IMG/VR virus record: IMGVR_UViG_3300042902_000085
Coordinates: 1-22,868 of that record
Direction: 5' to 3' (one strand)
DNA: 22,868 nt
From: a virus
Shown: positions 1-22,868 of the stretch, in pieces
Position numbering within the stretch: the first letter of the stretch is position 1
Layout of the letters: the number at the start of each line of letters is the position of its first letter
Made by a program: the position numbers and the translations under genes
The notes under the pieces: generated by a model
The model's database searches: none
What the model saw: the letters and a program-made list of their open reading frames with translations, nothing else
What the model was told of the DNA's origin: nothing

Positions 1-63
1 ATTATTTTCTTTAGACGGATCTGGTCCGTCTAGATTTCCTCTATGTGAAATGAGTTCCATCAT
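1..63 (-). CDS. Glycerophosphodiester phosphodiesterase-like protein, N-terminus only (3' end outside window)
   Basis: The last gene of the glycan module runs off the left edge. It starts with two adjacent ATG codons (63-61 and 60-58); the first overlaps the methyltransferase stop as ATGA, the junction style used across this window. The visible peptide reads MMELISHRGNLDGPDPSKEN. A hydrophobic strand followed by SHRGN and a short Gly/Pro-rich loop is the N-terminal signature of TIM-barrel glycerophosphodiester phosphodiesterases (His-Arg-Gly at the active site). Only about 21 codons are present, so the other catalytic residues cannot be seen. A role in trimming or modifying lipid- or glycan-linked phosphodiesters is inferred from the family and from the neighbouring glycosyltransferases. 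A perfect 8-bp inverted repeat lies inside this coding start. Confidence 0.6.
   Translation of the reverse strand, partial: MMELISHRGNLDGPDPSKENN
12..32 (-). repeat. Perfect 8-bp inverted repeat (hairpin) in the start of the GDPD-like gene
   Basis: On the sense (minus) strand the arms TAGACGGA and TCCGTCTA are exact reverse complements separated by the loop CCAGA. It lies about 30 nt downstream of the start codons and codes for the L-D-G-P-D-P-S part of the protein. There is no T-run after it, so it is not a convincing intrinsic terminator. It may be coincidental, or it may slow initiation or end transcripts. Confidence 0.6.
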
Positions 64-746
64 TTCTCCACTTGAAACCAGATCCATTGTTTATGCAAAT
101 CTTTACATGGAGTTCTGAAGTCTGCTTTATAATTTGTGAAACCAATTTTCGATAGATCATCTCTTAAAAATTGTTCATCTTCAATCGAAACGTCACACAT
201 TCCATTTGTTCCCTGAGCATCGTGATTGTTGTCATAATACTTCACAGAACCATCTCTTCCTCCGAATCCCATCTGTGCGCAGAATTTGCCACCAGGTTTA
301 AGAACACGATAAATTTCCTGCATGATCTTATATCGAATTTCGTGAACGCAAATGTGTTGCAAGCATATTACAGCAAAGACAACATCATATGAAGAATCTT
401 CAGTTGGAATATTATCTCCATCATTCACATACAAATTTGGAATATTGACACCGGCATCTTTAAGGTTGATTTTTGCTTTATCAATATTTGTTTGAGAGAT
501 GTCAACGCCATCAACTCGTTCAAATCTATTAGCAAACCTAATCAAGTTTCTACCTGGACCACAACCATATTCTAACGCAACAAGATTTTTGGTATCAAAG
601 TCTTTGAACAAAAACTCATCATAATCAGAAAACTTTTCATGATCATGATACCAACCAACTACTGGATTTTTATTGTTCAGTGACCATTTTGATGCTTCCA
701 CATCATAATATCCTTTTTGCATTTCTAAATATTTTTGTGAACTCAT
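60..746 (-). CDS. Class I SAM-dependent methyltransferase (Methyltransf_11-like)
   Basis: A 228-residue cytosolic protein with the class I Rossmann signature. Motif I is LEYGCGPGRNL (residues about 58-68), the glycine-rich SAM-binding loop, followed by the acidic ribose-binding position in VDGVDIS (about residue 82). A later DVVFAVICLQHI stretch and IYRVLKPGGKF match motifs III/IV and post-IV of methyltransferase_11 enzymes. The substrate is unknown; next to sugar enzymes, O-methylation of a glycan or of a sugar intermediate is the best guess. The start ATG overlaps the stop of the preceding gene by 4 nt (ATGA), which supports the start. There is no transmembrane segment or signal peptide. 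Confidence 0.85.
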   Translation of the reverse strand: MSSQKYLEMQKGYYDVEASKWSLNNKNPVVGWYHDHEKFSDYDEFLFKDFDTKNLVALEYGCGPGRNLIRFANRFERVDGVDISQTNIDKAKINLKDAGVNIPNLYVNDGDNIPTEDSSYDVVFAVICLQHICVHEIRYKIMQEIYRVLKPGGKFCAQMGFGGRDGSVKYYDNNHDAQGTNGMCDVSIEDEQFLRDDLSKIGFTNYKADFRTPCKDLHKQWIWFQVEK

Positions 747-1456
747 AGCATTTCCTGGTAAGGTCCTTTTGGTGTATGTTGCAATGTCTTGTTAATGTTA
801 ATTTCTTTCCATGGTAAACCAACATTATCTATATATTTCGTTGACAACACATGAGGACATAACAACTCTGTCTGCATGTATAACTGATTTATGAAGCAAG
901 AAATCTTCGAAAACATAATCATATTAACCATGTTTCCGACTTGCATCATATCGCCAGTTCCTTGTCCTAGATGGTTTCTGTGTGCGAGTGTGTAAAACTT
1001 GTCAACATCAAATTCAGGCAAATCTTCATGGAATAGCATATCTGGTCGCATACGAATGACTAGATCATACATAATTCCAGTTTGGGATACATAATCTTCC
1101 ATTAAACTTATGCCACGATTTAACTTGTAAAACATAGACAATATGTTCTTGGGTCGATGTGCAAAGTTTTTAAATGTTTCTCCACGATGTGTGAAGATCT
1201 TGTTATACATATCCCAAGATTCTACACAAATTCCGATTGGTTTATAAACACCACTAATTTCTTTCATATCAACCATAGGTGTCGATTCGTGATATCCTTT
1301 TTCGTTTTGTTTATCACCAGGAATCCACCAACCTTCTTCGTCCCACGTATGTATATAGATGTGTGGATTATATCTATCAATGATTCGTTCTTTGAAGTTT
1401 GGAAAAACATCTTTCCAACATCTCATGTGACCAGTCAATATGACAGCAACATTCAT
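743..1456 (-). CDS. Putative glycosyltransferase-like protein of the phage glycan module
   Basis: A 237-residue protein starting MNVAVILTGHMRCWKD, a beta strand then a loop typical of the start of nucleotide-sugar-binding folds. Other landmarks are IYIHTWDEEGWW (about residues 33-44) and YDLVIRMRPDMLF (about 129-142). The RMRPD type of motif is found in viral and bacterial proteins annotated as putative glycosyltransferases or capsular polysaccharide synthesis proteins. No canonical DxD is evident, although RPD may take its place. It overlaps both neighbours by 4 nt (ATGA), so it is expressed with the fusion enzyme upstream and the methyltransferase downstream. Assignment rests on motif shape and context; donor and acceptor cannot be named. 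Confidence 0.55.
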   Translation of the reverse strand: MNVAVILTGHMRCWKDVFPNFKERIIDRYNPHIYIHTWDEEGWWIPGDKQNEKGYHESTPMVDMKEISGVYKPIGICVESWDMYNKIFTHRGETFKNFAHRPKNILSMFYKLNRGISLMEDYVSQTGIMYDLVIRMRPDMLFHEDLPEFDVDKFYTLAHRNHLGQGTGDMMQVGNMVNMIMFSKISCFINQLYMQTELLCPHVLSTKYIDNVGLPWKEININKTLQHTPKGPYQEML

Positions 1457-2826
1457 AATTTATAGTTCTCCAAAAAGTAATTCAAATCTTCAGGTGTCCC
1501 GATACCCCACATCTTCTCAATATCTTTTACACGAATTTTCTTATTGTCACCAATAGCTTCATTGAATACTGGACAGGTGTAAAACTCTCCATTTGTTCTA
1601 ATATTCTTATCGATCATTTGTTCAGCATACTTAACATAGTCTGAACCTTTTTTCCAATAATAGATTCCAACTGTTGCGTTATCTGAAATAGGATTCTTCT
1701 CTGCTACTTCTGAAACAAGACCATCATCTCCGATCTTTGCGAAGGACCATTTTGGATGGGTTGCCTTGAAGGTGACAATACCACCATCAATACCATCAGC
1801 AGTAAAGGCATATAAACATTCATTTGAGTTCCATTCTACGTATTGATCTGAGTTCGCCATCAATAATGGCATATCATTATCTATGAGACTCTTAGCAAGC
1901 AATGTCGTACATGCCGCACCTTCAGTTATACCATCAACTTGAATGATATCACAATTTGGTGCAATCAGATTTAGTAATTGCTTCAAATTATATTTCTCAT
2001 AGTGTTCTTTTTGAACTAGAAATATAAAATGCGCATCAACATTGAGATTCTCAACAACTACTTGAATCATTGGTTTGCCATTAACTTCGATCAATGGCTT
2101 TGGAAAAGTGTAACCTGCTTTAGCAAATCTAGAACCTGCTCCAGCCATAGGAATTAACACATTCATCTTCTTATCTCTCCATGGTATAGACTTTTTTGTG
2201 ATTCCGTTTAAAATGTCCATCACATCATCAATCTTATCTGTTGTCAAATCATCAGGATCTTTTATAGGTATCAAATGTGCACCAGAATCTGTAGCCGCTT
2301 GTCTACCAATATGGCTATCTTCGAGAATTGCAGTATTTTTAGGCAAACAATTCAGTTTTGTCATTGCTTGCCAATACATTTCAGGATAAGGTTTTGGTTT
2401 AGAAACATCTTCATTACTCACGAAAACATCAACATACTCAATAACACCAATTGAAATCAGTGCAATTTTAACAGTCTCTCTAATAGAATTACTAGCAACT
2501 GCAATCTTGATACCACTATCTTTCAACCTCTTAAAGAATGAAATCAATTTTTCATCTTTAGGAAATTTTCGAATTAAATCGAATGTTGAATTTTGCTTGT
2601 CTTGCCAAACTTGATTGTAGTATTCTGGTGGTAATCCTTTATCGACAGTCAACATCTCAAGTTTTCTTGTCGTATTTAAACCATCATATCTGGACAGATG
2701 TTCATCTCTAGTAACCACATATTTTGCGTCAACTTTTTCTAGAGCGTTGTTAAATGAGTAGAAATGTAATTCTCTAGAATTAATCAATACTCCATCAAGA
2801 TCAAAAATTGCTAATTTATTATGCAT
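1453..2826 (-). CDS. Fusion: HAD-family phosphatase + sugar-phosphate nucleotidyltransferase
   Basis: A two-domain protein of 457 residues. Residues 1-210 form a HAD hydrolase: DLDGV nucleophile loop (D9, D11), a cap region, SNS (112-114, motif II), KPKP (143-146, motif III) and EDS (169-171, motif IV), as in beta-phosphoglucomutase-like phosphatases. Residues about 221-457 form a GT-A-like nucleotidyltransferase: MNVLIPMAGAGSRF with the glycine-rich loop at 229-234, FPKPLIEVNGKPMI from 241, and later MANSDQY and WGIGTPEDL near the C-terminus. It probably removes a phosphate from one sugar phosphate and activates another with a nucleotide, supplying the adjacent transferases. An upstream in-frame GTG (2829) is possible, but ATG at 2826 gives MHNKLAIFDLDG and is preferred. 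It overlaps the upstream glycosyltransferase by 8 nt. Confidence 0.85.
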   Translation of the reverse strand: MHNKLAIFDLDGVLINSRELHFYSFNNALEKVDAKYVVTRDEHLSRYDGLNTTRKLEMLTVDKGLPPEYYNQVWQDKQNSTFDLIRKFPKDEKLISFFKRLKDSGIKIAVASNSIRETVKIALISIGVIEYVDVFVSNEDVSKPKPYPEMYWQAMTKLNCLPKNTAILEDSHIGRQAATDSGAHLIPIKDPDDLTTDKIDDVMDILNGITKKSIPWRDKKMNVLIPMAGAGSRFAKAGYTFPKPLIEVNGKPMIQVVVENLNVDAHFIFLVQKEHYEKYNLKQLLNLIAPNCDIIQVDGITEGAACTTLLAKSLIDNDMPLLMANSDQYVEWNSNECLYAFTADGIDGGIVTFKATHPKWSFAKIGDDGLVSEVAEKNPISDNATVGIYYWKKGSDYVKYAEQMIDKNIRTNGEFYTCPVFNEAIGDNKKIRVKDIEKMWGIGTPEDLNYFLENYKL

Positions 2827-3436
2827 CACGGTGTCTCTTATTATGTTTAACTATTGCTTTTCCATTACATTTAATTTTATACTTATCTCTAACTCTTAAC
2901 GACCATTCAACATCTTCTGCTTGACCGTGGGCCAAACTCTCATTGAATGGTTCAGACATCACGACATGTTTCTTAACTAAAAAATATCCACCAGAAATAT
3001 ACATATATCTAGTTCTTGTCCATTCATCATATGGAAGACATGTGTATCTAGGAAATATAGGATCGTTCCAAACAACCCAATCAGTGAAATGTCTTTTTCC
3101 TGTTATCAACAACTGTTGATTTGAACATATGTCCCATTCACCAAAATTTAAAAATGATTCGTACCAATCAGTATCAAAAATATAGTAATCATGCAGATAT
3201 ACTAGATTATCATATTGTGAATGTTGCGCCAAGATATTCTTTTTTCTAGTTATCCATCCCGACCTCTGTGTTTCATCAAACTGCATGAAATTTACAGAAT
3301 TATCCGAATATGAATCACTACTTCCAATCACATTGATTTCATAGTTTGGAATATTCAATTGGTGTATAGATTTGGTAACTTGGTTCAATTGTTCCAAATT
3401 ACTGAAATCAGTCGTTATACAAAAAGAAAAGTTCAT
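2819..3436 (-). CDS. GT-A type glycosyltransferase (family 2-like)
   Basis: A 205-residue protein resembling compact GT2 enzymes. It opens with FSFCITTDFSN and a helix, then has INVIGSS, the YLHDYYIF stretch where a DxD-like metal/nucleotide-sugar site would lie (about residues 98-106), and a C-terminal GQAEDVEWSLRVRDKY with the ED dipeptide typical of the catalytic base region of GT2 enzymes. SGGYFLVKKHV just before it matches the acceptor-side region. Its start overlaps the GT4 gene stop by 4 nt. It is likely cytosolic, adding one sugar to a phage or host glycan; donor unknown. The fold assignment is fairly safe, the specificity is not. Confidence 0.75.
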   Translation of the reverse strand: MNFSFCITTDFSNLEQLNQVTKSIHQLNIPNYEINVIGSSDSYSDNSVNFMQFDETQRSGWITRKKNILAQHSQYDNLVYLHDYYIFDTDWYESFLNFGEWDICSNQQLLITGKRHFTDWVVWNDPIFPRYTCLPYDEWTRTRYMYISGGYFLVKKHVVMSEPFNESLAHGQAEDVEWSLRVRDKYKIKCNGKAIVKHNKRHRDA

Positions 3437-4392
3437 ACTAATTTCAAAATATCATCAACGGTCTTACTTATCATATGATTCATAGTAACATATTCATAAG
3501 ATTTTTCAATATGATCTTCTGAAACTGGTTTAAATTCTTTCATATAAGTCAACAGTTCATCGTCATTGTCGTATGTGAATCCAAACTCATTCATTAATTT
3601 TGCACCCGCCATGTTTGTTGCCGCCCACGGAGTTTTATTCAACATTGATTCCAATAATACGAGACCAAATCCCTCACGATTTGAATGCATGACATATAAA
3701 TCTGCTTCACGAATTGCAGACATAACATCTTCACGATTATCTAACATCAAATTCTTAACATACTTAGAATCTTCAGGTTTAATATTAAATCTATTATCAT
3801 AACCAGTCGTGACTAACGTGACATCATCTCTTCCCACTTGATTAAACAAATCAACAAGTTCTTTCATTCGTTTGTTTTGCCAATAACCACCGCAAGATAA
3901 GAACATATATTCAGTTTCGATATTAAACTTCTCACGAAAACCAATTGTGCCCATCGATATCTTTGGATCAATACCATGCCGAACTTTAGTAGACTTACTG
4001 AATGCTCCTGGTATTTGGCAGACATATACCCAATCCTCATTTGTTGAACATGCAATATATTTGCAATTTCTGACAGCATGAAAATATGTTTTAGACACTG
4101 AAGGTATAATCAACATGAATAAAATTGGTGATTTAATTTTATCAGAATTAGATAGAACAAAATCTTGAAGGCCGACATCACCACCATGAACAACAATCAA
4201 ATCCCAGTCTTCATTTAAAATATTAGGATCACTAGAAACACGAACGCCGTTCCAATCACCGTTATGTTCGCCAGTAAATACAGCAACTTCATTTCCACGA
4301 CTTAACGTTTCTTCTGCCATATCACGAACATAGTTCTCAGATCCACCAGGAAATGGAGCGTAACGATGAACAACATATAATAACTTAGACAT
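3433..4392 (-). CDS. Glycosyltransferase group 1 (GT4-like, GT-B fold)
   Basis: A protein of 319 residues from the ATG at 4392 (or 323 from the in-frame ATG at 4404). The N-terminus MSKLLYVVHRYAPFPGGSENYVRDMAEE is the classic GT4 start with the Gly-Gly loop and helix. The middle has YMFLSCGGYWQNKRMKELVDLF, the usual start of the second Rossmann domain. The C-terminal REGFGLVLLESML carries the E-x7-E catalytic motif that binds the nucleotide-sugar. The 4392 start is preferred because conserved GT4 sequence begins there; both starts overlap the previous gene. It probably adds a hexose or similar residue to the glycan built by this module. It is slightly short for GT4 (often 350-400 residues), in the N-terminal domain. 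Confidence 0.88.
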   Translation of the reverse strand: MSKLLYVVHRYAPFPGGSENYVRDMAEETLSRGNEVAVFTGEHNGDWNGVRVSSDPNILNEDWDLIVVHGGDVGLQDFVLSNSDKIKSPILFMLIIPSVSKTYFHAVRNCKYIACSTNEDWVYVCQIPGAFSKSTKVRHGIDPKISMGTIGFREKFNIETEYMFLSCGGYWQNKRMKELVDLFNQVGRDDVTLVTTGYDNRFNIKPEDSKYVKNLMLDNREDVMSAIREADLYVMHSNREGFGLVLLESMLNKTPWAATNMAGAKLMNEFGFTYDNDDELLTYMKEFKPVSEDHIEKSYEYVTMNHMISKTVDDILKLV

Positions 4393-5224
4393 ATTTTTTC
4401 TCAATCAATTTACGCCATTCGGGCACACGATCATACTGATGAACTATAGTATACTCTATTCCAGTGGAAGTTGCAACCATATCACCATCTAATTTAGGTA
4501 AAGGTTCTAACAAAAATTCTTTAAATTGTTCTTGCTTAGATGGATCAGCAGTAGTTCCCAACTGACAAGCCCAACCCTGTTCAGATTTTGCATATAAACA
4601 AAGATCAGTGTATGGGTGTTGTGAAATTAAGAAATTAAATGTTGATTGATCGCATATTGGAATATTTGCATTTATGCATGATACGAAAATGTTCATACAC
4701 AAATCTCTAATGTATTCTGCTCTTCCCGCTAAAACTCCAACATTGAAGATTTCATTTTCTTTAAAGATATTGTGAATGAATGGGCCATATGTGTCCATGA
4801 GATTCTGATTTCCCCACGACTCATCTTTATATCTAATACTTTCAGATGAAAAGATCATTGCTCGATCACCCAAACTATTTTCAATCCATTCAACTGGATT
4901 TTTCTGAAACACAACATCACGAACATCTGTCGTGATGACGTAACGATAGTTTGTTTTTGATAGGTAGTTGTAAAGATGTAAGAATCGTTCGACATGAACC
5001 ATCATTTGTGATTCATGAACTAGATTGCCCTCATCATCTTGTTTAAAACCAATAATCTTAAATCCTGCTTCAGTTACTTTTTGACAGGTTTCTCTGTTGG
5101 CGTTCATCAAAATTAATACTTTGTCGCCCTCAAAACCAGATTGATTGATCGAGTTAACCCAATACTTTAGTTTATCCCAATCATAGTTGTTGGCACAGCC
5201 AATAATCAAATCACGTTGTTCCAT
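4385..5224 (-). CDS. Putative glycosyltransferase (GT-A fold)
   Basis: A 279-residue protein beginning MEQRDLIIGCANNYDWDKL. The segment YRYVITTDVRDVVFQKNP (about residues 93-110) contains a DxRD pattern in the position where GT-A transferases of the GT8/GMA12-like type hold their metal-binding DxD. EIFNVGVLAGRAEYI is the usual acceptor/sugar-site strand, and VHQYDRVPEWRKLIEKKY closes the protein with a conserved His and Tyr-Asp. A good Shine-Dalgarno (GGAGATATT before ATG) precedes the start, and a 21-bp gap separates it from the small gene upstream. It is the first gene of the glycan module. I see no separate promoter, so it may be read from the late promoter at 9075-9082. Confidence 0.7.
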   Translation of the reverse strand: MEQRDLIIGCANNYDWDKLKYWVNSINQSGFEGDKVLILMNANRETCQKVTEAGFKIIGFKQDDEGNLVHESQMMVHVERFLHLYNYLSKTNYRYVITTDVRDVVFQKNPVEWIENSLGDRAMIFSSESIRYKDESWGNQNLMDTYGPFIHNIFKENEIFNVGVLAGRAEYIRDLCMNIFVSCINANIPICDQSTFNFLISQHPYTDLCLYAKSEQGWACQLGTTADPSKQEQFKEFLLEPLPKLDGDMVATSTGIEYTIVHQYDRVPEWRKLIEKKYV

Positions 5225-5245: not shown

Positions 5246-5575
5246 TTACTTATTCTTCGTATATTCCTTGAAAGATTTTAAACTTTGTCCAGGAGTATCA
5301 TTGATATACGATTTTACTAATTCATCTGTGCCCTCTTGACCACCACCAGATTTTGGAAGAATATCTTTCTTCACTTCTTCATACACACTTTTATGTAGTT
5401 TAGTGTTGGTAACAGATTGAACGATATCCCAAACACCCTTATGATTCTTTTTATCTAGATGTGTTTGGAATTTCTTTTTCTGTTCAGGAGTAGCAACTTT
5501 ATGAAACTTAATTAATTCCATAAGTCCAATGTTTCCTTCATAAGATGCTTCGATCAATTCTTTAAACTTTAACAT
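5246..5575 (-). CDS. Conserved small phage protein with capsid-targeting-like N-terminus; function unknown
   Basis: A 109-residue basic protein starting MLKFKELIEASYEGNIGLMELIKFH. I recognise the NIG-x-x-E-(L/M)-(I/V)-KF pattern from uncharacterised proteins of marine T4-like phages but know no function. Residues about 20-60 are predicted to be helical and Lys-rich (PEQKKKFQTHLDKK), followed by VWDIVQSVTN. The first nine residues end in L-I-E, matching the hydrophobic-x-Glu cleavage motif of T4 prohead protease gp21. There is no transmembrane segment. It begins two nt after the stop of the gene upstream, so it is probably translationally coupled. If packaged in the head, it would be a small basic internal protein. 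Confidence 0.75.
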   Translation of the reverse strand: MLKFKELIEASYEGNIGLMELIKFHKVATPEQKKKFQTHLDKKNHKGVWDIVQSVTNTKLHKSVYEEVKKDILPKSGGGQEGTDELVKSYINDTPGQSLKSFKEYTKNK

Positions 5576-5576
5576 T

Positions 5577-5849
5577 CTAGTCTCTCGTTAGGGATAAGAT
5601 TTTTTCAATTTGCTTTTCAATAACTGGTCCTCTATTGGGCCAACGAATCAACTCTTGATCTCTTGTTTTATATAGATTTGTCAGAAATGGCATAATAATT
5701 TTTTCTACTTGTCGAAGTCTTTCTTTATATTCTTCAACTGTCTCATCTTTCTCAGCAATAACTGCTTGAAATTCTTCTTCAGATTCTGTGGAAAATCCAA
5801 AGTCTGAATCTCCATATTCTTCCATTAGTTTAGAGATGTCGTATTTCAT
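5577..5849 (-). CDS. Small acidic/coiled phage protein of unknown function
   Basis: A 90-residue protein: MKYDISKLMEEYGDSDFGFSTESEEEF at the N-terminus, an acidic Glu-rich helix (about residues 25-55, ETVEEYKERLRQVEKII) that could form a coiled coil, then PFLTNLYKTRDQELIRWPNRGPVIEKQIEKIL. The F-G-F-S acidic start and the W-P-N-R motif with the helix after it are features I associate with small uncharacterised proteins common in marine T4-like phages. No catalytic motif is visible. ATG at 5849 immediately follows the TAG of the His-rich gene (5852-5850). The acidic charge contrasts with the basic proteins on either side, so it could be a binding partner; that is only a suggestion. Confidence 0.75.
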   Translation of the reverse strand: MKYDISKLMEEYGDSDFGFSTESEEEFQAVIAEKDETVEEYKERLRQVEKIIMPFLTNLYKTRDQELIRWPNRGPVIEKQIEKILSLTRD

Positions 5850-6593
5850 CTATTTTTTATTCCTCATGTTTCCAAGAACATAATTTAAATGGTGTTTATT
5901 CATTATATCATGTGTGGATTTTTCAACACTTTTGGGGTGAGCCCTGAAATTTACTTGCATTCCAGTTCCATTTTCATTTTGTCCTCCACCACTTCTTTCA
6001 GTTGAAACCTGAAAATGTCCCGTTCCTTTAAGTGCAGGAAGACCTGTCGAATGCACATCTTTAAGATGACTTTTGCCTGCCCGATATGTTCCTCTATCAT
6101 GTATATGTATTACATGAACATCATGATCTTTCATATAAGCGTGAGCTGGCTTCATATCAGTATGATCGGCTTTAAAACCTGGTAGTATTTTTCCTGGTCC
6201 AGGTTTTCCCCAATGTTTATTTAAATGTTTGAAGAGAGGAACTCCATTGACCGTACTTTTCTCAACTTCGCTTGCTAGATTTGGTTTTTCTTTTTTAGTT
6301 TTTTCGCTTACATGCCAACCATGTTCGTGATGATATCTAATAGCGACAGATCCTAGTTTTGCTCCAGAGATACTTTTTTTCGTTTCTCCGTGAATAGTTT
6401 TTCTAAAAACTCCACCCACTTTATCCGCACCACTAGAATGCATAAGGTGAAAATCGTGGCCGCCAGTTGATCCCGCAGCCGCAGAATTTTTATCCATGGC
6501 TCCATGCTGTTTCAGGTGATCAACTAATTTTTTTTCCAAACTAAAAGCATGTGATGTGTCGGATTCTGTTATAAAATTTAAAAAGGATTTCAT
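5850..6593 (-). CDS. His-rich basic protein with capsid-targeting-like N-terminus; function unknown
   Basis: A protein of 247 residues from ATG 6593, which overlaps the upstream stop as TAATG; an in-frame ATG at 6605 is less likely because it lies deeper in the upstream gene. Its start MKSFLNFITE is strikingly like the T4 internal-protein leader (from memory, MKTYQEFIAE), matching at M, K, the aromatic, F, I and E. About 26 of 247 residues are His, many in HxH or HH pairs (YHHEHGWH, HVIHIHD, KHHLNY), and Lys and Gly are also abundant. The Gly/Ser-rich stretch near residues 39-57 and GGGQNENGTG near 205-215 look flexible. Metal- or nucleic-acid-binding is plausible from composition. I know no functional homologue. 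It sits directly after the ligase-like gene. Confidence 0.8.
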   Translation of the reverse strand: MKSFLNFITESDTSHAFSLEKKLVDHLKQHGAMDKNSAAAGSTGGHDFHLMHSSGADKVGGVFRKTIHGETKKSISGAKLGSVAIRYHHEHGWHVSEKTKKEKPNLASEVEKSTVNGVPLFKHLNKHWGKPGPGKILPGFKADHTDMKPAHAYMKDHDVHVIHIHDRGTYRAGKSHLKDVHSTGLPALKGTGHFQVSTERSGGGQNENGTGMQVNFRAHPKSVEKSTHDIMNKHHLNYVLGNMRNKK

Positions 6594-7825
6594 TATTTGT
6601 CCCAAGCCTTTGCGGCATTAAAGTTCTGTTGAGAGAACTCCATTCTGTCCACTAATTTTAAAGCACCGCCAGATATTCTATCAACTGCCACGAAACCTTC
6701 CGGACCAGTAACTTTGAATCCTTCAGGTGTTCTCACAAATGTATCCATTGATGATTTGATGACTTCCAATTTACGAATAATAAAATCTTTCGCTTCAACA
6801 ATAAGATTCATCAAATCAAAAATCAACTTCAATTGATTAATATTGTTTTTATAAAATCGCATCACCTCAGTTTTTTCGGCTTGACGATTCTTTTTTGTGT
6901 CTGCCCGTTTCGCCTCAATAATTGATTTGTTGAGTTTATCTTCGACCCACTTAATCAATTCGACAGTATGTCTTCCAGTATCACGTATTTGTTCACCAGC
7001 ACGAACTTTAGTGTTGTTAAATGTTTTTATCTGAATCAATATTTTATCGACACTTGATATTCTATTCAAACTTGTTGCACTGATGGATTGAAAAACTCTA
7101 CCCGCTTCAGATAAAATTGAATTTAATCTTTTTGTTTCATTTTCTGTGAAAGTAGATGTTCCTGAAGCATCAACAAAAGATGCATCTCTAAACCATACAT
7201 CACGAGTCTGTTTGAGATGTCCAATGTCTATGTTGAAAGATGCTTTTAACGTATCTATTGTTCTGCCAGAATATGCTGTATGGAATACAATTCCCAATTG
7301 TGCGGAAAGAATGCTCTTTGATAATTTTGTATCAGTAGGAACAGCATACACAATCGTATTTGGTTGAAATGTGATATACGAAACGCCATCAATGGTTTGT
7401 TTTTTTGTATCACCTTTAGTGAAAAGAAGATCACCTTGAAGTATTCCAGTTATTCCAAGTTTAGGAAGAAACGCAAGTGCATATTTCAACTTATCATTTA
7501 AACCAGGATTTGGATGATTTCTGTCTATGTCATCATTTGTGTAATTAATCTTACCTTCTTTATTGAAAACAGACTTTGTTCCAACAAAGAATTTCCCAGT
7601 CTCAGGATTGATTCCACATATGACAGCAGGTGCACCATCCCATTTCGTGGTAACATTGACTTTAGATTTAGATTGACCAGAAAACATATCACGTAATGAA
7701 CGTAAAAAGTTGATAGATTCTCTAGCACCTTGGACACCTCGATTTAAAACATTATCTTCCAAATGTTCTAGATGGAGATTCGCTCCAGTATTTTTTGATT
7801 CGTTTAAGTATTGTTTAAAGTTCAT
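6593..7825 (-). CDS. DUF6267-like protein with ligase/nucleotidyltransferase motifs
   Basis: A 410-residue protein. It resembles a family of marine T4-like phage proteins that I know as DUF6267 (recall, not a search). The sequence shows the ordered motifs of the covalent nucleotidyltransferase (DNA/RNA ligase, capping enzyme) superfamily: KWDG at 61-64 (motif I, K61 as the AMP-accepting lysine), GKFFVGTKS and EGKINYT just after (position of motif Ia), QGDLLF at 130-135 (motif III-like), EGFV at 376-379 (motif IV-like) and LKLVDR at 389-394 (motif V). A long helical, Lys/Arg-rich insert (about 290-360) separates motifs III and IV, which is unusual. The N-terminus MNFKQYLNE ends in hydrophobic-x-Glu, like T4 head-targeting leaders. 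It starts one nt after the previous stop. An enzyme joining or adenylylating nucleic-acid ends is inferred. Confidence 0.72.
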   Translation of the reverse strand: MNFKQYLNESKNTGANLHLEHLEDNVLNRGVQGARESINFLRSLRDMFSGQSKSKVNVTTKWDGAPAVICGINPETGKFFVGTKSVFNKEGKINYTNDDIDRNHPNPGLNDKLKYALAFLPKLGITGILQGDLLFTKGDTKKQTIDGVSYITFQPNTIVYAVPTDTKLSKSILSAQLGIVFHTAYSGRTIDTLKASFNIDIGHLKQTRDVWFRDASFVDASGTSTFTENETKRLNSILSEAGRVFQSISATSLNRISSVDKILIQIKTFNNTKVRAGEQIRDTGRHTVELIKWVEDKLNKSIIEAKRADTKKNRQAEKTEVMRFYKNNINQLKLIFDLMNLIVEAKDFIIRKLEVIKSSMDTFVRTPEGFKVTGPEGFVAVDRISGGALKLVDRMEFSQQNFNAAKAWDK

Positions 7826-7826
7826 G

Positions 7827-9053
7827 TTAGTATATTTTCACAAAAGGTCCGTTAGTGTCTCTAAATTCTTTCTTAGCGCCATAGTAAAGAGTTTTCAACC
7901 ATTCTTCAATCAATTCATTTTTTTCTATTAATGCCCAAGCATATGCCCAACGCATACAAGTTAATTTCGATGAAAGTCGTCCAGCTGCATATCTACTTGA
8001 AGATTCGTTCATTATACAATAATCCAAAACTTGATCAAATGAACCTTTAGAAACTTCTTTGTTTTTATAAAAAACTTTCATGTCACCAAAATATATATTC
8101 ATTTTGTTAACTTTGAGTTTAGAAAGTTCTTTTTGGAAACTTATCCAATATTTTTTATCTTCTTCTTTCCATTGTCCTGGCGCAGGAATATGTGGATCTT
8201 TACCTGCGTTGACAGGTCTAATGATTCTTAACTTATTATAATACTTTGAGAAGAAATCGTCAATAGCATCAGCTGAAGATTTACCTATTTTAGCGCCAGC
8301 ATCTTTACCTGTTGGAGTAAGATCAGTTTGAACACCGCCTCTAGGAGAAGATATGTTAAAATTTCTAGTTTGCCAGTTTACATCAGTTTCTCCAACTTTA
8401 AATTGACCCGAAATTTCACCATTGTCTATTTCTGTTGGAGTTTTACTATTTGTACCAAAATTTAAAAAACATTTAAGTGGTCCATTGATGGAGAATTGCA
8501 ATTCTTTTTGTTTACCTTTACCCATATTTGACAATTCAAGGTCAGCTTTAACTTTAGATTTAGATATAGCTTTCAAAGATACCGGTACCAAATCATATGA
8601 CTGTATCAGTTCTCTCATGTAGGCATTCAAAGAATATAGATTCGCCATCTGATCAGGATTTTTTGTTATCTGGTCTATATTTTTTTTGATTGCATTCTCT
8701 TTTGATTTCTTTACAATATATATGTCAGCTGGATTCCAATTATCTTTAGTCTTAACACCGCAACGACTCTTAGCAATATCTTCTATGTAAGTCATGAATC
8801 CCGAATTCTCATCTCTTGAATATGAATAACCCTTATTATTCTTTAAATAAGATTTAAGTGCTGCAGCCTGTTTCACATATGTTGACATCCAAATTTCTCG
8901 CAAAAGTTTGTTCTTTGCTAAATCCGGATAAACAGAAGATACTACAGAAAATAATTCCGATTCCGAAGGAATTTTAGAACTTTCTATATATTTTTGAAAA
9001 AAAACTTTAGAACCATTTTCCTGTTTCGCAGTTTCAATAGCATTTCCAGCCAT
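7827..9053 (-). CDS. Putative PD-(D/E)xK-like nuclease, first gene of the late cluster
   Basis: A 408-residue protein from ATG 9053; the GTG at 9059 is in frame but a GGAG Shine-Dalgarno is correctly spaced for 9053. I do not recognise the family by name. Landmarks are a helical N-terminal part (1-95), then KDNWNPADIYIV (residues 103-114), a helical segment NLYSLNAYMRELI and DLVPVSLKA (154-162). An Asp at the end of a P-A-D strand followed some 45-50 residues later by hydrophobic-S-L-K is the layout of PD-(D/E)xK nucleases, with Ser in place of the usual acidic residue. Residues about 165-260 appear beta-rich (KADLELSNMGKG, CFLNFGTNSK). The C-terminus has RWAYAWALIEKNELIEEWL. It follows the late promoter and directly precedes the ligase-like gene. 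Confidence 0.55.
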   Translation of the reverse strand: MAGNAIETAKQENGSKVFFQKYIESSKIPSESELFSVVSSVYPDLAKNKLLREIWMSTYVKQAAALKSYLKNNKGYSYSRDENSGFMTYIEDIAKSRCGVKTKDNWNPADIYIVKKSKENAIKKNIDQITKNPDQMANLYSLNAYMRELIQSYDLVPVSLKAISKSKVKADLELSNMGKGKQKELQFSINGPLKCFLNFGTNSKTPTEIDNGEISGQFKVGETDVNWQTRNFNISSPRGGVQTDLTPTGKDAGAKIGKSSADAIDDFFSKYYNKLRIIRPVNAGKDPHIPAPGQWKEEDKKYWISFQKELSKLKVNKMNIYFGDMKVFYKNKEVSKGSFDQVLDYCIMNESSSRYAAGRLSSKLTCMRWAYAWALIEKNELIEEWLKTLYYGAKKEFRDTNGPFVKIY

Positions 9054-9074
9054 AAACACTCCATTTTTATAGAG

Positions 9075-9082
9075 TATTTATA
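9075..9082 (-). promoter_or_regulatory. T4-type late promoter (TATAAATA)
   Basis: The intergenic gap 9054-9091 contains on the sense strand TATAAATACTC, an exact match to the T4 late promoter box TATAAATA recognised by RNA polymerase with gp55 and the gp45 clamp coactivator. It lies about 20 nt upstream of the ATG at 9053, leaving room for a short leader with the GGAG Shine-Dalgarno. There is no -35 element, as expected for this class. It divides the replication operons from the cluster at 9053-5246 and implies that cluster is expressed at the virion-assembly stage. Confidence 0.75.
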
Positions 9083-9091
9083 ATACTATGT

Positions 9092-10204
9092 TTACCGGAT
9101 AATGTCAATCTCAGTGTTGTTTGTCCAAACCTCAATTTCAGTGCGAAGTCTGTTCTCAGATTTCAAAGACTCATAACGGTTCGTTGCCTTTTTCTTCCAC
9201 CAATCAATCAGATTATTAAGATTATGTTTATCATAGTTCTCATCTTTTACAATCTTGTCTTCTTTTCCAGCAACTATTTCACGGAAGTTTTTTATACCAT
9301 AGTTGCAATAGTAGTATCTTTTCTTTTCGGTCAATTGCTTAGTTTTATCAATAAATGAACAGAATTCTTCATATTCATTTCCACCTTTCAATCCACTCTT
9401 GATCAGAGACACAGCAGTATTCATGATCCTAAGTTTTCTATTAGAAACATCTTCATCAACTATCGGTGATCCATTAATTTCATCAAGATATTGTTTCAAA
9501 TTTTCATAAGGTTCACCATGCATCATAGGAAGAAAATCTGAAACCGTGACACCACTAAATCGCAGGAATGGTTTCATACCATCATATTGAGACACACTCT
9601 TAGTTGTTCCGTATAAACTTGTTGTTTCAAACAGACACATGTTCATGTCATATTTCTTATTGATCATATCACGAACTTCATGTGAACAACAAATTGCAGC
9701 AAGTAGTTTACCACCAATGTAATTGAATCCGAAAGGTTGAGTTGGAACAATAACGAATCCCATCAATGAAGATTTATTGAATGATTTGATCAAATCTGTT
9801 TCACTCGCCATATTATATCCCAACATATCATTTCTTGGTTTCATCATAATTGTGGGAGATCCAAATCGAATAAATCCAACCCATTTCTGAGTTGTCTTTT
9901 CAAAAACAGCCAGTTTTATATTTCTTCCAGGATTAGATGTATTGATGTGTGATGAAGTGATATCAAGATAATTCTGCCAACGATTCGAATCTAGATCAAC
10001 AATCTCAAAATCCATATCGTTGGGTGTAATATCAAAATTGGAAAATAAATCTTCTTCTGGTCCACATCCAGGCAATGCAGTAGTTACATTGGATAAAGAT
10101 TTCAACTTCTGATCTCGCATATATTCATCAATTCGTTCAAACTTATCAAAGTAGTCTGTAAAAATCTTTGCACAATGCAGAGACTGTTCTTTAGTCAATT
10201 TCAT
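9092..10204 (-). CDS. DUF4338/DruA-like protein downstream of the replicative helicase
   Basis: A 370-residue cytosolic protein overlapping the helicase stop by 4 nt (ATGA). The middle third resembles DUF4338, the domain of the Druantia defence protein DruA and of some transposon-associated proteins: KLAVFEKTTQKWVGFIRFGSP (97-116), the conserved KPRNDMLGYN region (122-131, compare family K-x-R-D-x-x-I-G-W), then a strand before a loop and helix (GFVIVPTQPFGFNYIGGKLLAAI, 149-171) and YDMNMCLFETTSLYGTTK (185-202), where the family has L-L-E-T-F-V and a G-T pattern. The C-terminal third is basic and Trp/Tyr-containing (RYYYCNYGI, LIDWWKKKATNRYESL). Position behind gene 41 suggests a role in replication, recombination or counter-defence. 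The family link is by pattern recall and should be tested. Confidence 0.65.
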   Translation of the reverse strand: MKLTKEQSLHCAKIFTDYFDKFERIDEYMRDQKLKSLSNVTTALPGCGPEEDLFSNFDITPNDMDFEIVDLDSNRWQNYLDITSSHINTSNPGRNIKLAVFEKTTQKWVGFIRFGSPTIMMKPRNDMLGYNMASETDLIKSFNKSSLMGFVIVPTQPFGFNYIGGKLLAAICCSHEVRDMINKKYDMNMCLFETTSLYGTTKSVSQYDGMKPFLRFSGVTVSDFLPMMHGEPYENLKQYLDEINGSPIVDEDVSNRKLRIMNTAVSLIKSGLKGGNEYEEFCSFIDKTKQLTEKKRYYYCNYGIKNFREIVAGKEDKIVKDENYDKHNLNNLIDWWKKKATNRYESLKSENRLRTEIEVWTNNTEIDIIR

Positions 10205-11604
10205 ACACGCATACCTTCAAATTTTGTGTTAAATTTACGTTCTCTGCTACCAAAAGTATTGATTGGACCAGTATCAACATTTTGACCAGAATCTGATAAA
10301 CCTTTCTGAGCAGAATCTTCGGCATCATATAGTTTCATTTTAGCACGATCAACACCAATAACAAACTTCTTATTGAAGTTGGGATCACCGTAACGATTCT
10401 TCAATTGCTTAACCATAATTTGATTCAACTGTTCAAGTTCTTCAGTACTAATCAATGCGAACATAAAATCAGCAGTGGCAGGCAATCCAAATGATTCAGA
10501 AGTATCCTCTAAACCAACGTCTGTATTCGAGAAACCACTTCGAGTTGTTTGTGTAGCAGAAACAACAGGTACACCAAATTCCACAGCAAGACCACGAAGT
10601 TCTTCGGCAATTGCTTTGATGTAAGAATATGAATTCACAGAAGCGCCCATCTTGATTCTAGATGAACTACAAATATTCAAATAATCGATAAAGATGATTT
10701 CTGGAACAAAATTCTTCTTCAATCGCAATTCATTCAGTAGTGAACGAAAGTGACTAGCATTAGCACTTGCAGTAGGATATTCTTTGATGATCAATTTGCC
10801 TTGAGTCTTATTTTTCAATACAGAAAATCTACGATCATAATCATCTTTTGAAACTGTGTGTAAATCATCAATCGTGATATTCAATAAGTTCGCATCAATA
10901 CGTTCTGCAATTTTCTCTTCTGCCATCTCAAGTGTGATATAAAGAACATTATGACCTTGACTGATACTCGATGCGGCAACATGGCACATGAATAATGACT
11001 TACCAACACCAGTTCCTGCAAGTGCAATATTCAAAGTCTTTGCTGGTATTCCACCCTTTGTAATTTTATTGAAATAATCTAAGTCAAATTTAATCTTCTT
11101 TTCTTTTCTATGATAGAAGTCGAAACGGGATTCAGAATCATTCAAGTAATCATGACCAACATTAGAATCAAAAGAAACACCGAGCGCATCAGATAACAGT
11201 TCAGGAATAGAACCTTTACTTTTATTTCCTGAACTGTTATCTAGAATCTGAACTGATTCCATGATTGCATTGTATATTGCTTTGTCTTGACAAAACTTCT
11301 CTGTCTGATTTGTCAACCATTGCATCTCGGATTTTTCATTCTTATTTTCACACAACTTATTCAATAAATCGATTGAAGATTTAACTTGATTTTCTGTAAA
11401 ACTCTTGGATTCCATAATATTAATCACAAGGGCTTCGTGTGTTGGAAGAGTTTTGTATTGTGTTACAAAACTTTCAACCTCATTGAATAATAAAGACTCG
11501 GCAACATCTGAAAAATAATCTGTACGAATAAACGGTAATACTTTCCTTGTAAACTCATCATTGTAAATCAAATTTTTCAGTATTGTCGTTTCTATGCGAT
11601 CCAT
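10201..11604 (-). CDS. 41: DnaB-like replicative helicase (T4 gp41)
   Basis: A 467-residue hexameric 5'-3' helicase of the replisome, driving unwinding on the lagging-strand template. The N-terminal domain (1-165) has the DnaB-type helical pattern. The RecA-like core begins near 170: ITKGGIPAKTLNIALAGTGVGKS with Walker A at 197-203 (K202, S203), ITLEMAEEKIAERID (223-236, motif H1a with its Glu), PEIIFIDYLN (301-310, Walker B, D307), and VPVVSATQTTRSG (motif H3). RFSVLKN and NRYGDPN fit the later arginine-finger region. The length is close to T4 gp41 (475). The ATG lies 47 nt inside the upstream gene and its stop overlaps the DUF4338-like gene, so the set is translationally coupled under the uvsX promoter. 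Confidence 0.95.
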   Translation of the reverse strand: MDRIETTILKNLIYNDEFTRKVLPFIRTDYFSDVAESLLFNEVESFVTQYKTLPTHEALVINIMESKSFTENQVKSSIDLLNKLCENKNEKSEMQWLTNQTEKFCQDKAIYNAIMESVQILDNSSGNKSKGSIPELLSDALGVSFDSNVGHDYLNDSESRFDFYHRKEKKIKFDLDYFNKITKGGIPAKTLNIALAGTGVGKSLFMCHVAASSISQGHNVLYITLEMAEEKIAERIDANLLNITIDDLHTVSKDDYDRRFSVLKNKTQGKLIIKEYPTASANASHFRSLLNELRLKKNFVPEIIFIDYLNICSSSRIKMGASVNSYSYIKAIAEELRGLAVEFGVPVVSATQTTRSGFSNTDVGLEDTSESFGLPATADFMFALISTEELEQLNQIMVKQLKNRYGDPNFNKKFVIGVDRAKMKLYDAEDSAQKGLSDSGQNVDTGPINTFGSRERKFNTKFEGMRV

Positions 11605-11932
11605 GTTTTGCTTCTTCCGATAATAAAATTTCAGTCAATATATCACCAATTATTGTAACAAAATCTGAACTAGAATTCAAGTCATCTTCACTATAACTAC
11701 CTGTATCGATTACTTTATATTCAAATTTTAAATTGGCAAATTCCATTTGTTCTTGTACTTGGAGTGTTCCGTAGTAGTAAGTGACTCCACTATATTTACC
11801 ACTCAAAAGAGTGATACCTGTGTAGTCACTTTCTGGAATACTGTAAAATGTATAATCTTTACCGTATTCAGGCTTCTTCGGCTTTTTCCAAAACAGGAGT
11901 TTGTCCCATAATGCTTCCATAAGAAATCCCAT
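11558..11932 (-). CDS. Unknown small protein overlapping uvsX and gene 41
   Basis: Up to 124 residues from ATG 11932, or 120 from ATG 11920, which has a GGGA spaced six nt upstream; the 11932 ATG has an AGAGG too close to it. The N-terminus MEALWDKLLFWKKPKKPEYG is amphipathic and basic. Then comes DYTFYSIPESDYTGITLLSGKYSGVTYYYGTLQVQEQ, a beta-rich stretch, and an acidic tail (YSEDDLNSSSDFVTIIGDILTEILLSEE). It resembles an unassigned protein that follows uvsX in marine T4-like phages. The 65-nt overlap with uvsX and the 47-nt overlap with gene 41 make it a dual-coded bridge. A replisome or recombination accessory role is only suggested by position. Confidence 0.8.
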   Translation of the reverse strand: MGFLMEALWDKLLFWKKPKKPEYGKDYTFYSIPESDYTGITLLSGKYSGVTYYYGTLQVQEQMEFANLKFEYKVIDTGSYSEDDLNSSSDFVTIIGDILTEILLSEEAKHGSHRNDNTEKFDLQ

Positions 11933-12923
11933 ACCTCTTTGTAATAAAGTTTTTAAATTTATCAGTTTCTAAAATTGGTTCCCAGAAACTAGCGTTGTCT
12001 GTATCCGCTAATCGTTTCTTATCTCCAATCTCACCAGTTTCCTGATCAACCTTTGCATACCAACCATTTGAAGGTTTAACAACAAAATTGCCTTCAATCG
12101 CAACGTCCATTAATCCAGAATACTTATGTATTCCACCTTCGAATGAAACTGTGATGGGAATCTTAGACTTCTCACGAACATATCTAGACTTCTCAACATT
12201 GATGATGAAATTGTAACCAGTAATATCTGCTCCAGTTTTTTCTTGTTGACGACCTAAGATGTAGATATTATCTGCTGAATAATAAGAACCTGTACCACCA
12301 CCAACAATATCTTTCGGAAACATTCCAATTTCTTTGTATGTGTGATTAACAACAATCATAGGAATATCTTTCATCGTCAAGTGTGGTGTTACCATTCTGA
12401 ACAGAGACTTGACTTGTTTAGCCCGAGACATATCTGCAACAGATTTGCCATCAAGTGCATCATCAACTTCTTTCTTTGATGCTAAGTTACCGATTGAATC
12501 AAGAATGATGATAAGTTTATCACCACGTTCCAAATTCTGCAACTGTTGCATAATATCAAATTTCAATTGTTCAATATCAGTAAGTGGCGTGTGTAGCACA
12601 CGATCCATATCAATATCAAATGTTTCAAAGTATTTGGCTGGCGTACCAAACTCAGAATCATAAAACAACAAAATTGATTCAGGATATTGCTTCATATATG
12701 CATTTGCCATCAATAGACTGAATGCTGTCTTGAAGTGTTTACTTGGACCAGCCCACATGGTGAGACCTGGTGTTAAACCACCATCAAGTTTTCCAGACAA
12801 AGCAACATTGACCATGGGTACAGATGTTGATACCATATCCTTTTCTGTAAAGAATTTGGAGTCTGAAAGTATGGAACTATCTTTAATTGTACTATTTTTC
12901 TTCAACTTATCAAGTAGAGACAT
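11868..12923 (-). CDS. uvsX: UvsX RecA-like recombinase
   Basis: A 351-residue strand-exchange protein of the RecA/Rad51 superfamily, forming filaments on ssDNA for recombination-dependent replication and repair. Walker A is GPSKHFKT (59-66; the T4 form is GPSKSFKS). FYDSEFGTP (88-96) carries the catalytic Glu region. KLIIILDSIGNLASK (137-151) is Walker B with D143. MIVVNHTYKE is the L2-proximal strand, and VGGGTGSYYSADNI matches the DNA-binding loop region. The length is near T4 UvsX (391). The start has AGGAG seven nt upstream and a perfect sigma70 promoter just before it. The 3' end overlaps the next gene by up to 65 nt. Confidence 0.95.
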   Translation of the reverse strand: MSLLDKLKKNSTIKDSSILSDSKFFTEKDMVSTSVPMVNVALSGKLDGGLTPGLTMWAGPSKHFKTAFSLLMANAYMKQYPESILLFYDSEFGTPAKYFETFDIDMDRVLHTPLTDIEQLKFDIMQQLQNLERGDKLIIILDSIGNLASKKEVDDALDGKSVADMSRAKQVKSLFRMVTPHLTMKDIPMIVVNHTYKEIGMFPKDIVGGGTGSYYSADNIYILGRQQEKTGADITGYNFIINVEKSRYVREKSKIPITVSFEGGIHKYSGLMDVAIEGNFVVKPSNGWYAKVDQETGEIGDKKRLADTDNASFWEPILETDKFKNFITKRYGISYGSIMGQTPVLEKAEEA

Positions 12924-12949: not shown

Positions 12950-12977
12950 ATTATACACTATCCAAAGAAATTGTCAA
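12950..12977 (-). promoter_or_regulatory. Consensus sigma70 promoter for uvsX-41 operon
   Basis: On the sense strand TTGACA (12977-12972), a 16-bp spacer, then TATAAT (12955-12950): both hexamers match the bacterial consensus exactly. The -35 box lies inside the last codons of the polymerase gene. The -10 box is about 27 nt upstream of the uvsX ATG, leaving a short leader that contains CAGGAG as Shine-Dalgarno. It should be read by unmodified host RNA polymerase, giving early expression of uvsX, the bridge gene, 41 and the DUF4338-like gene. Confidence 0.85.
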
Positions 12978-21531: not shown

Positions 21532-22122
21532 GACATATTCAATCTTTTGCCTAAGTTGTATTATTGATGCATCATTATCTATAACATAATCAAAATCACA
21601 ACCTACCCAATCCCACTCAGATCTATGTACTCCACGACCCTTCATCATCTGTTCACGAAAGAATTCGCTTGGTTCGTCCGACATATCATCAAACCATTCA
21701 GGATCTTCACCACGTTTAACTCTAATAACTATACCATCGTTCTTTTGGATATAATCGATTTCATTTTTAAATCGAACATCTGTAACAACAACATCTTTAC
21801 CTTTTGCACGATTCAACAATGATATCACCCATAAATCTTTATGAAAAACATCTCTGCCAGCTTCAGTTCCCATCAACTGCAATGCTTCCCTTGGAGTAAA
21901 CTCTCTTCCGAATTTCTCACTCCAAAAAGCATCAGGTTCTTCACGCCACTTTCTTGAGTATTCAGTATCACCCTCAAGTAGTTCACGTTGCCAACCAAAA
22001 ACTGATGACACAGCATCTTTCAATGGTTTAGCGAAACTGTCTTTTACAAATCCGTTTTCAGCAAAAATGTCTCCGACAGTTCCTTTTCCGCTAGATATGA
22101 ATCCAACAACACCCACAAGCAT
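21514..22122 (-). CDS. 1: Deoxynucleoside monophosphate kinase (T4 gp1)
   Basis: A 202-residue P-loop kinase that phosphorylates dNMPs to dNDPs. Near the N-terminus MLVGVVGFISSGKGTVGDIF holds the P-loop (GFISSGKGT, 7-15). KDSFAKPLKDAVSSVFGW (28-45) and FTPREALQLMGTEAGRDVFHKDLWV (about 76-100) are the characteristic dNMP-kinase segments, and VVTDVRFKNEIDYI (about 112-125) contains the Walker B-like Asp and arginine region. Length is a little under T4 gp1 (241). ATG overlaps the upstream stop as TAATG. With dCMP deaminase and the MazG-like enzyme it indicates active management of the dNTP pool. Confidence 0.92.
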   Translation of the reverse strand: MLVGVVGFISSGKGTVGDIFAENGFVKDSFAKPLKDAVSSVFGWQRELLEGDTEYSRKWREEPDAFWSEKFGREFTPREALQLMGTEAGRDVFHKDLWVISLLNRAKGKDVVVTDVRFKNEIDYIQKNDGIVIRVKRGEDPEWFDDMSDEPSEFFREQMMKGRGVHRSEWDWVGCDFDYVIDNDASIIQLRQKIEYVLQQIK

Positions 22123-22868
22123 TATAATTTTCCCATGTATTGTGCGATAGCAGGCATATTACCTGTAAACGCATACGTTCCAATATGTTGAGTTTTCATC
22201 CATGGACATAAGAAGATTTGTCCGCCAATCTTGCGCCACATCTGACAAAACATATAGTCTTCAGAAAGATATCGATCACTACCACCACCAGTGATACTAT
22301 CTACACTATCAATAACAGTATCGAAATATGCATGAATGTATCGTGAACCATCAAAATTAGATTGTCCAACATGATCGGGTTTATATCGAATGAGTGGATA
22401 TGCTTCTGCCATTTTACTAAAAACTTCACGTTTAACCATCATGAATCCTGTTCCAATCTCCAAAACTTCAAGTGGTTCTGTAACAGTAAACTTTTTAGTT
22501 CCCTTGACAACATTGAAAACATATTCGCCAACTAGAGATTCGAGTTCACGTGGTTCCATGTCTGGATGGTTTCGTGCGGCTGCGGCTATGCTGTTCCAAT
22601 TAATTGACTTTTTAGGATAAGGACCACCAACAACTTCTTTATCAAGGGCTAAAAGAGCAACAACATCTTGAGGATTGTAATGTATATCTGAATCGATAAA
22701 CAACAAGTGTGTACATTCTGATCGTAAAAATTCATCAACAAGGTAATTTCGGGCACGAGTAATGAGAGATTCGTTAAAAAGAAACGAAAACTTCACTTCC
22801 ACACCATATCGAGAAAGTAGTCCTTGCAAATCCAAACACGATTTCACATACATTCCATGTGACATGCC
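22122..22868 (-). CDS. GT-A glycosyltransferase, 5' end cut by window edge
   Basis: At least 247 residues, and the frame is open to the right edge. The first visible ATG (22865) is probably internal because members usually have a short strand (I-A-M/T-P-x-Y-G-G) before this point. Landmarks: FLFNESLITRARNYLVDEFL (28-47), THLLFIDSDIHYNP (52-65) with DSD as the metal-binding DxD, and VVGGPYPKKSINW (77-89). EIGTGFMMVKREVF precedes the acceptor region, and EDYMFCQMWRKIGGQIFLCPWMKTQHIGT gives the ED catalytic base and C-terminal His. This type is common in marine T4-like phages and may glycosylate virion proteins or DNA-linked groups; the acceptor is unknown. Confidence 0.82.
   Translation of the reverse strand, partial: GMSHGMYVKSCLDLQGLLSRYGVEVKFSFLFNESLITRARNYLVDEFLRSECTHLLFIDSDIHYNPQDVVALLALDKEVVGGPYPKKSINWNSIAAAARNHPDMEPRELESLVGEYVFNVVKGTKKFTVTEPLEVLEIGTGFMMVKREVFSKMAEAYPLIRYKPDHVGQSNFDGSRYIHAYFDTVIDSVDSITGGGSDRYLSEDYMFCQMWRKIGGQIFLCPWMKTQHIGTYAFTGNMPAIAQYMGKL

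Follow-up and report, generated by a model that had tools for sequence, protein, structure and literature searches.

The window analysed here, a stretch of 22,868 nucleotides spanning positions 1 to 22,868 of the IMG/VR virus record IMGVR_UViG_3300042902_000085, encodes on its minus strand (complement(6593..7825)) a 410-residue protein of the DUF6267 family (PF19782). The family alignment and two predicted structures identify this protein, with little room for doubt, as a ligase-type nucleotidyltransferase core with an intact active site, and the same sequence and model evidence makes a polynucleotide ligase highly probable. The best overall explanation is an intact nucleotidyltransferase of the ligase superfamily that would seal DNA nicks as part of a split ligase with DUF6433; we hold this whole to be evenly balanced, and nick sealing together with DUF6433, taken as a claim of its own, falls just short of that balance. 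The computed basis consists of the motifs, their invariance, the predicted fold, gene position, distribution and the profile similarity between DUF6433 and ligases, from which we infer adenylylation, ligation, a DNA substrate and the pairing with DUF6433.

Membership in DUF6267 is clear. Pfam matched the window protein to PF19782 at E 9.8e-116 (387.6 bits against a curated cut-off of 27), which turns the "DUF6267-like" of an earlier note, made from the letters of the window, into exact membership. That note had the span of the gene right; the strand needed correction to minus, as reading the same span on the plus strand meets many stops. The protein also matches phrog_455 in PHROGs, and DUF6267, phrog_455 and the cyanophage cluster T4-GC 71 are the same family, labelled hypothetical or of unknown function in the records opened. 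No paper on DUF6267, phrog_455/T4-GC71 or DUF6433 was found in the open-access literature, which is not proof of absence in print. A tblastn search found the family in 468 of 50,697 phage records, under the names Synechococcus (368), Cyanophage (61), Prochlorococcus (24) and Methylophilales (4), with Pelagibacter, Stenotrophomonas, Vibrio (2), Pseudoalteromonas (1) and further phages among the others; scans of IMG/VR added more than 200 loci. Proteins were obtained from 263 loci, of which 248 were complete enough and 119 were kept at below 90% identity; together with the window protein they form the alignment of 120 sequences. PF19782 was matched by all 76 aligned members scanned with Pfam. 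The family has a long form of about 400 residues (102 of the 119) and a short form of 290-335 residues (17 of the 119), in which the motifs are retained and a helical insert has lost much of its length. In the phrog_455 profile (764 positions) DUF6267 takes up about 1-341 and a cytidyltransferase about 343-764, which suggests that fused members exist; none was seen. Two records show the gene in unusual form: the old record of S-PM2 has it in two pieces (L038:5989-7192; S-PM2p141, 192 residues), matched as one in LN828717, and the S-T4 record MH412654 has two matches of equal score, at 5481-6383 and 177050-177952, lying towards opposite ends of this linear record as the copies of a terminal repeat might.

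Sequence motifs provide the first line of evidence for the ligase assignment. KWDG (61-64), QGDLLF (130-135), EGFV (376-379) and LKLVDR (389-394), all read by the earlier note without an alignment, each occur once in the protein and at those residues; KWDG is its sole KxDG or KxNG. The choice was better than chance, as K61, D63, G64, E376, G377 and K390 all lie in fully invariant columns. Motif I (KWDG; 7634..7645, minus strand, as are all features of this gene) carries K61, the predicted adenylylated lysine, at the end of a model strand (56-61). In motif III (QGD, 130-132; 7430..7438) position 132 is D in 117 sequences and E in 3, and G131 is replaced by A in 8. Motif IV (EGFV; 6689..6700) overlaps a model strand at 377-382 and is followed by motif V (KLVDR, 390-394; 6644..6658). 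The acidic residue of motif III, E376 and G377 of motif IV and K390 of motif V occur in the order of the superfamily. Two further candidates are our own assignments: motif Ia at FFVGTKSVF (79-87; 7565..7591), with K84, and motif IIIa at NTIVY (156-160; 7346..7360), with a model strand at 158-163. Positions invariant in all 120 sequences are K61, D63, G64, G71, P74, F79, F80, K84, N156, Y160, H182, T183, Y185, N271, K346, E376, G377, K390, R394, F397 and N401. Three of these belong to a family-specific HTAY (182-185; 7271..7282), and an HxxHxED signature, HLEHLED (18-24; 7754..7774), is invariant where present (118-119 of 120, the rest being gaps). Since the catalytic positions are all invariant, the alignment argues that DUF6267 is not a decayed enzyme.

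The helical insert lies between motifs IIIa and IV (residues 228-355; 6761..7144), contains the invariant N271 and K346, and is strongly reduced in the short relatives. It had been described in the earlier note as a 240-residue basic helical region between motifs III and IV. These motifs are 244 residues apart, but the interval is largely made of core strands, the helical part is about 128 residues long, and its basic character is mild (25 K/R against 17 D/E over 228-356).

Structure prediction provides further evidence. AlphaFold models of the window protein (76 sequences; mean predicted local distance difference test score, pLDDT, 87.2; predicted template modelling score, pTM, 0.81) and of a 292-residue short member (pLDDT 87.0, pTM 0.81) both contain the ligase nucleotidyltransferase core. 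Foldseek's top 1000 chains were re-aligned with VIA-align and 50 rows were listed per model; ligases or ligase-containing repair complexes fill all 50 listed PDB rows for both models, the ligase chain in a few of the complexes presumably being DNA ligase IV. The best match is the Naegleria RNA ligase 6vt3, with Z 8.9, a root-mean-square deviation of 3.6 and 185 aligned residues for the window model and Z 8.3, 3.8 and 176 for the short member. The next rows, in varying order, are RNA editing ligase, T4 Rnl2, Trl1, T4 Rnl1, archaeal RNA ligases and DNA ligases. In these models it is the uniform list of ligases, the invariance and the motif spacing, rather than the middling Z, that make the ligase fold a persuasive assignment.

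Comparison with known ligases shows what is shared and what is missing. The Naegleria gruberi RNA ligase (6vt3, 5cot), which we take to be of the Rnl5 type, has the nucleotidyltransferase core and the motif I KxD in common with DUF6267, and the same spacing of 14 between motifs IV and V (E376-K390 in DUF6267, E312-K326 in the ligase by its PDB mutant names). It aligns through its catalytic domain only (about 140-339), at about 10-14% identity, and DUF6267 lacks a second domain but has the helical insert. T4 RNA ligases 1 and 2 (5tt6, 1s68, 2hvq) share the core and the order of the motifs with DUF6267 (Z 7.4-7.8 with the window model) and have C-terminal domains besides; their families PF09511 and PF09414 gave no sequence or profile match to DUF6267 (hhalign for Rnl2), and the window protein matched neither in Pfam. 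The step from K61 to K84 is 23 residues, against 20 from K35 to R55 in T4 Rnl2, and that from motif III to Y119 in the short form is 17, against 20 from E99 to F119. The T4 gp30-type DNA ligase (PF01068) belongs to the same core superfamily and combines DNA-binding, catalytic and oligonucleotide/oligosaccharide-binding (OB) parts on one chain, whereas DUF6267 is the catalytic part alone; the two have a largely complementary distribution.

Gene position and distribution favour a role of DUF6267 in DNA replication or repair. Of the 16 isolate records first viewed, ten have the DUF6267 gene at most a few genes behind the gp41 helicase (syn9, S-PM2, Syn19, P-HM2, S-CAM9, S-CRM01, P-RSM4, Syn1, HTVC008M and Melnitz-3), and in these ten a cytidyltransferase comes next or a few genes further on; that of Melnitz-3 is annotated as hypothetical and was identified by profile match. 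DLP6 and C48C1 have the cytidyltransferase, and gp41 was not in the stretch viewed. In the window, gp41 (10201-11604), UvsX (11868-12923) and gp43 (12958-15489) were assigned by eye and synteny only. A family search covered 20 carriers of DUF6267, four of them metagenomic contigs that may be incomplete, with T4 as control and S-CREM2 as a 21st carrier. A cytidyltransferase-like protein was present in all 20. The ligase domain DNA_ligase_A_M (PF01068) was not matched in 19 of the 21, S-CREM2 among them, and PF09414, PF01653 and PF09511 were matched in none of the 20; the T4 control matched PF01068, PF09414 and PF09511. A T4-type polymerase occurs in 2498 records, and its Synechococcus (376) and Cyanophage (61) counts are close to those of DUF6267 as group totals, not record by record. 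With T4 gp30 as query, tblastn returned 2520 records, with neither Synechococcus nor Cyanophage among the ten names listed. A review reports that homologues of T4 g30 were not found in cyanomyoviruses, deems true absence likelier than distant homologues, and leaves the sealing of Okazaki fragments in T4-like cyanophages open, favouring the host ligase (PMC2984593).

The DUF6267 chain includes neither a DNA-binding nor an OB domain, and DUF6433 is therefore proposed as its DNA-binding partner. The record counts of DUF6433 (Synechococcus 374, Cyanophage 61, Prochlorococcus 24, Methylophilales 4) mirror those of DUF6267, and the domain is present in 20 of the 21 carriers, in G002 below the curated cut-off; the profile search did not find it in G004, a 119-kb contig, or in T4, the check. 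Ten of 20 DUF6433 loci have an RNase H-like gene no more than about 1.5 kb away. In the carrier search the DUF6433 profile also matched the N-terminus of the DNA ligase of DLP6 (E 6.5e-4). A custom DUF6433 profile was then run on nine ligases and 380 other open reading frames (ORFs), decoys that include T4 gp30 a second time. It ranked two true DUF6433 proteins first, followed by the N-termini of four T4-type ligases: DLP6 (7.4e-6), ICP1 (1.9e-5), VH7D (1.3e-4, residues 4-115) and IME13 (2.8e-3), with the best non-ligase at 0.11. The five ligases closest to T4, itself included, were weak (E 0.15-2) and aligned at the same end. One DUF6433 protein already bears the name: gp190 of S-CREM2 (L318:4930-5433), beside RNase H, is annotated "DNA ligase". 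As a whole ligase it was rejected, being a 167-residue protein of DUF6433 (PF20025).

The catalytic roles given to residues of DUF6267 are those of general ligase chemistry. K61 would be adenylylated by ATP, with D132 and E376 holding the metal and the ribose and K390 contacting the alpha-phosphate; the adenosine monophosphate would then pass to a 5'-phosphate, and sealing would follow. The substrate would most likely be DNA nicks arising in replication or recombination of cyanophage-type T4-like phages, with DNA binding supplied in trans by DUF6433, a separate protein similar to the N-terminal domain found in DNA ligases of the T4 type. The active ligase or end-modifying enzyme proposed in the earlier note is thus borne out in part, on alignment and model, as far as a ligase core whose catalytic residues are all in place. 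Neither result that the note named as refuting was obtained: both predicted folds contain the nucleotidyltransferase core, and K61, D63 and the motif V lysine are conserved throughout the alignment. In its most specific and more tentative form, the DNA ligase of cyanophage-type T4-like phages might be an OB-less enzyme of two genes, DUF6433 for DNA binding and DUF6267 for catalysis, whose catalytic half is capsid-carried in many lineages; we consider this possible though somewhat doubtful. T4-like cyanophages abound in the ocean, and DUF6267 is a concrete candidate for their unexplained Okazaki-fragment sealing. A two-piece DNA ligase without an OB domain, if true, would mean that an essential enzyme can be built in a new way, and it might also serve as a new reagent.

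Several results weigh against this explanation. At the level of the fold, Foldseek by itself gave no significant match (best E 0.13 and 0.037), and best Z scores of 7-8 are common with VIA-align for models lacking a clear match. Among PDB sequences neither phmmer nor a profile search found a solved relative, narrow profiles of T4 Rnl2 and gp30 gave nothing in hhalign, and the window protein did not match PF01068 at E up to 10. Pfam (76 members) and PHROGs (36 members) gave no ligase link, among the 25 of 61 Pfam families listed. The OB domain and motif VI are absent, with 16 residues past R394 and one helix (394-403) in the model. At the level of the pairing, seven records of a Sinorhizobium group have DUF6433 without a DUF6267 match, and two Vibrio records and one Pseudoalteromonas record have DUF6267 without DUF6433. 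T4 gp30 itself reached only E 2 with the custom profile, Pfam's own DUF6433 model matched one of five ligases (E 0.027), and hhalign of DUF6433 with T4 gp30 aligned residues 3-46 at P 0.024 (two controls, 0.22 and 0.3). At the level of the genomes, DLP6 (Stenotrophomonas) and S-CRM01 (Synechococcus) carry DUF6267 and DUF6433 yet also match DNA_ligase_A_M, and in S-T4, S-CAM7, S-SCSM1, S-N03 and S-CREM2 a DUF6267 of about 295 residues stands among small accessory genes. The clade-wide pattern could also reflect ancestry alone.

A second property of the family concerns the virion. Residues 1-10 of the window protein (MNFKQYLNES; 7796..7825), modelled at low confidence (pLDDT about 34), form a capsid-targeting-like peptide. 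Such a start, similar to that of T4 Alt, occurs in 75 of the 92 long forms counted, where residue shuffles would give 5.2 (the sequences being related and not independent), and in none of the 17 short forms; the other ten of the 102 long forms, whose starts were cut or not found, did not enter the count. In S-CREM2, capsid-targeting-like starts occur in 4 of 13 detected virion proteins outside the structural list against 2 of 64 others (Fisher p 0.006); the check covered 13 of the 52 detected virion proteins and 64 other genes from the two stretches that encode them, a few of the very small ones excluded. These counts, with the virion proteins taken from Table 3 of the virion study, support an association of the peptide with virion proteins. 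The authors of that study caution that co-purification is possible (PMC10665884). The S-CREM2 member of DUF6267 is gp87, a short form, and is not in virion protein Table 3 of that source. S-CREM2 had been considered as a phage free of DUF6267, a scan of two stretches having found none; this was rejected when searching the entire record for the family brought up gp87. The earlier note's proposal of injection with the genome has partial support: the peptide of the long forms speaks for it, its lack in the short forms and the absence of gp87 from Table 3 do not; injection is likely, judging from sequence, for some long forms only. Elsewhere in S-CREM2 (gp6-gp15; L316:3837-13331), a virion-detected S-adenosylmethionine hydrolase, a kinase and a small protein share an MKxFxxFLxE-like start; a Cas9-like protein also detected in virions carries RFASFMAEA around residue 18, which may be close to where that protein truly begins.

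The gene immediately upstream occupies a hypervariable slot. In the window the occupant is a phrog_1462 protein of 410 residues (7827..9059, minus strand) with a PD-(D/E)XK-like motif seen by eye (PADIY...VPVSLK). Compared with the close relative L001, DUF6267 is 85% identical in DNA and both flanks 91%, 7829-10204 is replaced and 5856-6587 is absent. By blastp the 75 upstream genes divide into 15 clusters, while DUF6267 from those loci makes a single one, and 259 of the 346 pairs with DUF6267 identity of at least 65% have unrelated upstream genes. A PD-(D/E)XK-like pattern occurs in 31 of 74 upstream genes (those located among the 119 loci), against 3.25 expected from residue shuffles; downstream, 6 of 304 genes have it, where 7.3 would be expected. 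Pfam (E 0.05) found nothing in ten upstream proteins except one irrelevant match. Three of the eight capsid-targeting-like starts in the Melnitz-3 genome belong to the upstream gene, DUF6267 and the cytidylyltransferase. Within the exchanged stretch and adjoining the replication genes, the window also encodes a 370-residue protein (9092-10204) that matches Druantia DruA (PF14236, E 1.1e-10).

The capsid-targeting-like peptide and the fold neighbours together would suit an RNA ligase or RNA-end enzyme that is packaged, injected and active early in infection in the repair of RNA from host or phage. The nearest solved folds are RNA ligases (Naegleria, T4 Rnl1, Rnl2, TbREL1, Trl1), the long forms have the peptide, and the neighbouring cytidylyltransferase, T4-GC190, is reported in virions of S-SM1 (PMC3037559) and also of S-CREM2 (PMC10665884). 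We nevertheless regard this as unlikely, with the peptide missing from the short forms, gp87 outside Table 3, DUF6267 in a DNA replication cluster and no RNA kinase or phosphatase partner identified; gene position and distribution speak for DNA replication or repair in place of the host RNA repair suggested by the earlier note. The variable slot could be read as part of a packaged nucleic-acid module, in which the upstream nuclease cuts competitor, host or trapped DNA and DUF6267 seals the phage ends, with the cytidylyltransferase downstream. Such a module, rather improbable in our estimate, would account for the turnover of upstream genes beside a single DUF6267 cluster, the enrichment of the nuclease pattern upstream and not downstream, the Melnitz-3 trio and the constant presence of the cytidylyltransferase, but its nuclease is called from a regular expression with nothing relevant from Pfam, its counts come from related loci and are not independent, and certain short forms are located in other genome regions.

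The remaining alternatives keep the fold and change the reaction, or dispense with the fold. Messenger RNA capping enzymes appear in the Foldseek list and the OB domain is absent, as might be expected of a capping-type, protein-modifying or inactive nucleotidyltransferase; the invariant catalytic positions and the ligases that fill both VIA-align lists make this very improbable. Coincidence of motifs and middling Z on a different fold would explain why neither sequence nor Foldseek scores are significant, and is scarcely credible given that motif residues, invariance, order, spacing and the models of two distant members agree independently. The reading of DUF6267 as a DNA-sealing ligase core paired with DUF6433 is thus the one we prefer.

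Two further features of the window complete the description. A 251-residue ORF at 5850..6605 on the minus strand, absent from L001, has an internal ATG that would give MKSFLNFITES, another capsid-targeting-like start. The replication block is flanked by ORFs that look by eye like glycosyltransferases and methyltransferases, at 60-5224 and 22122-22865.
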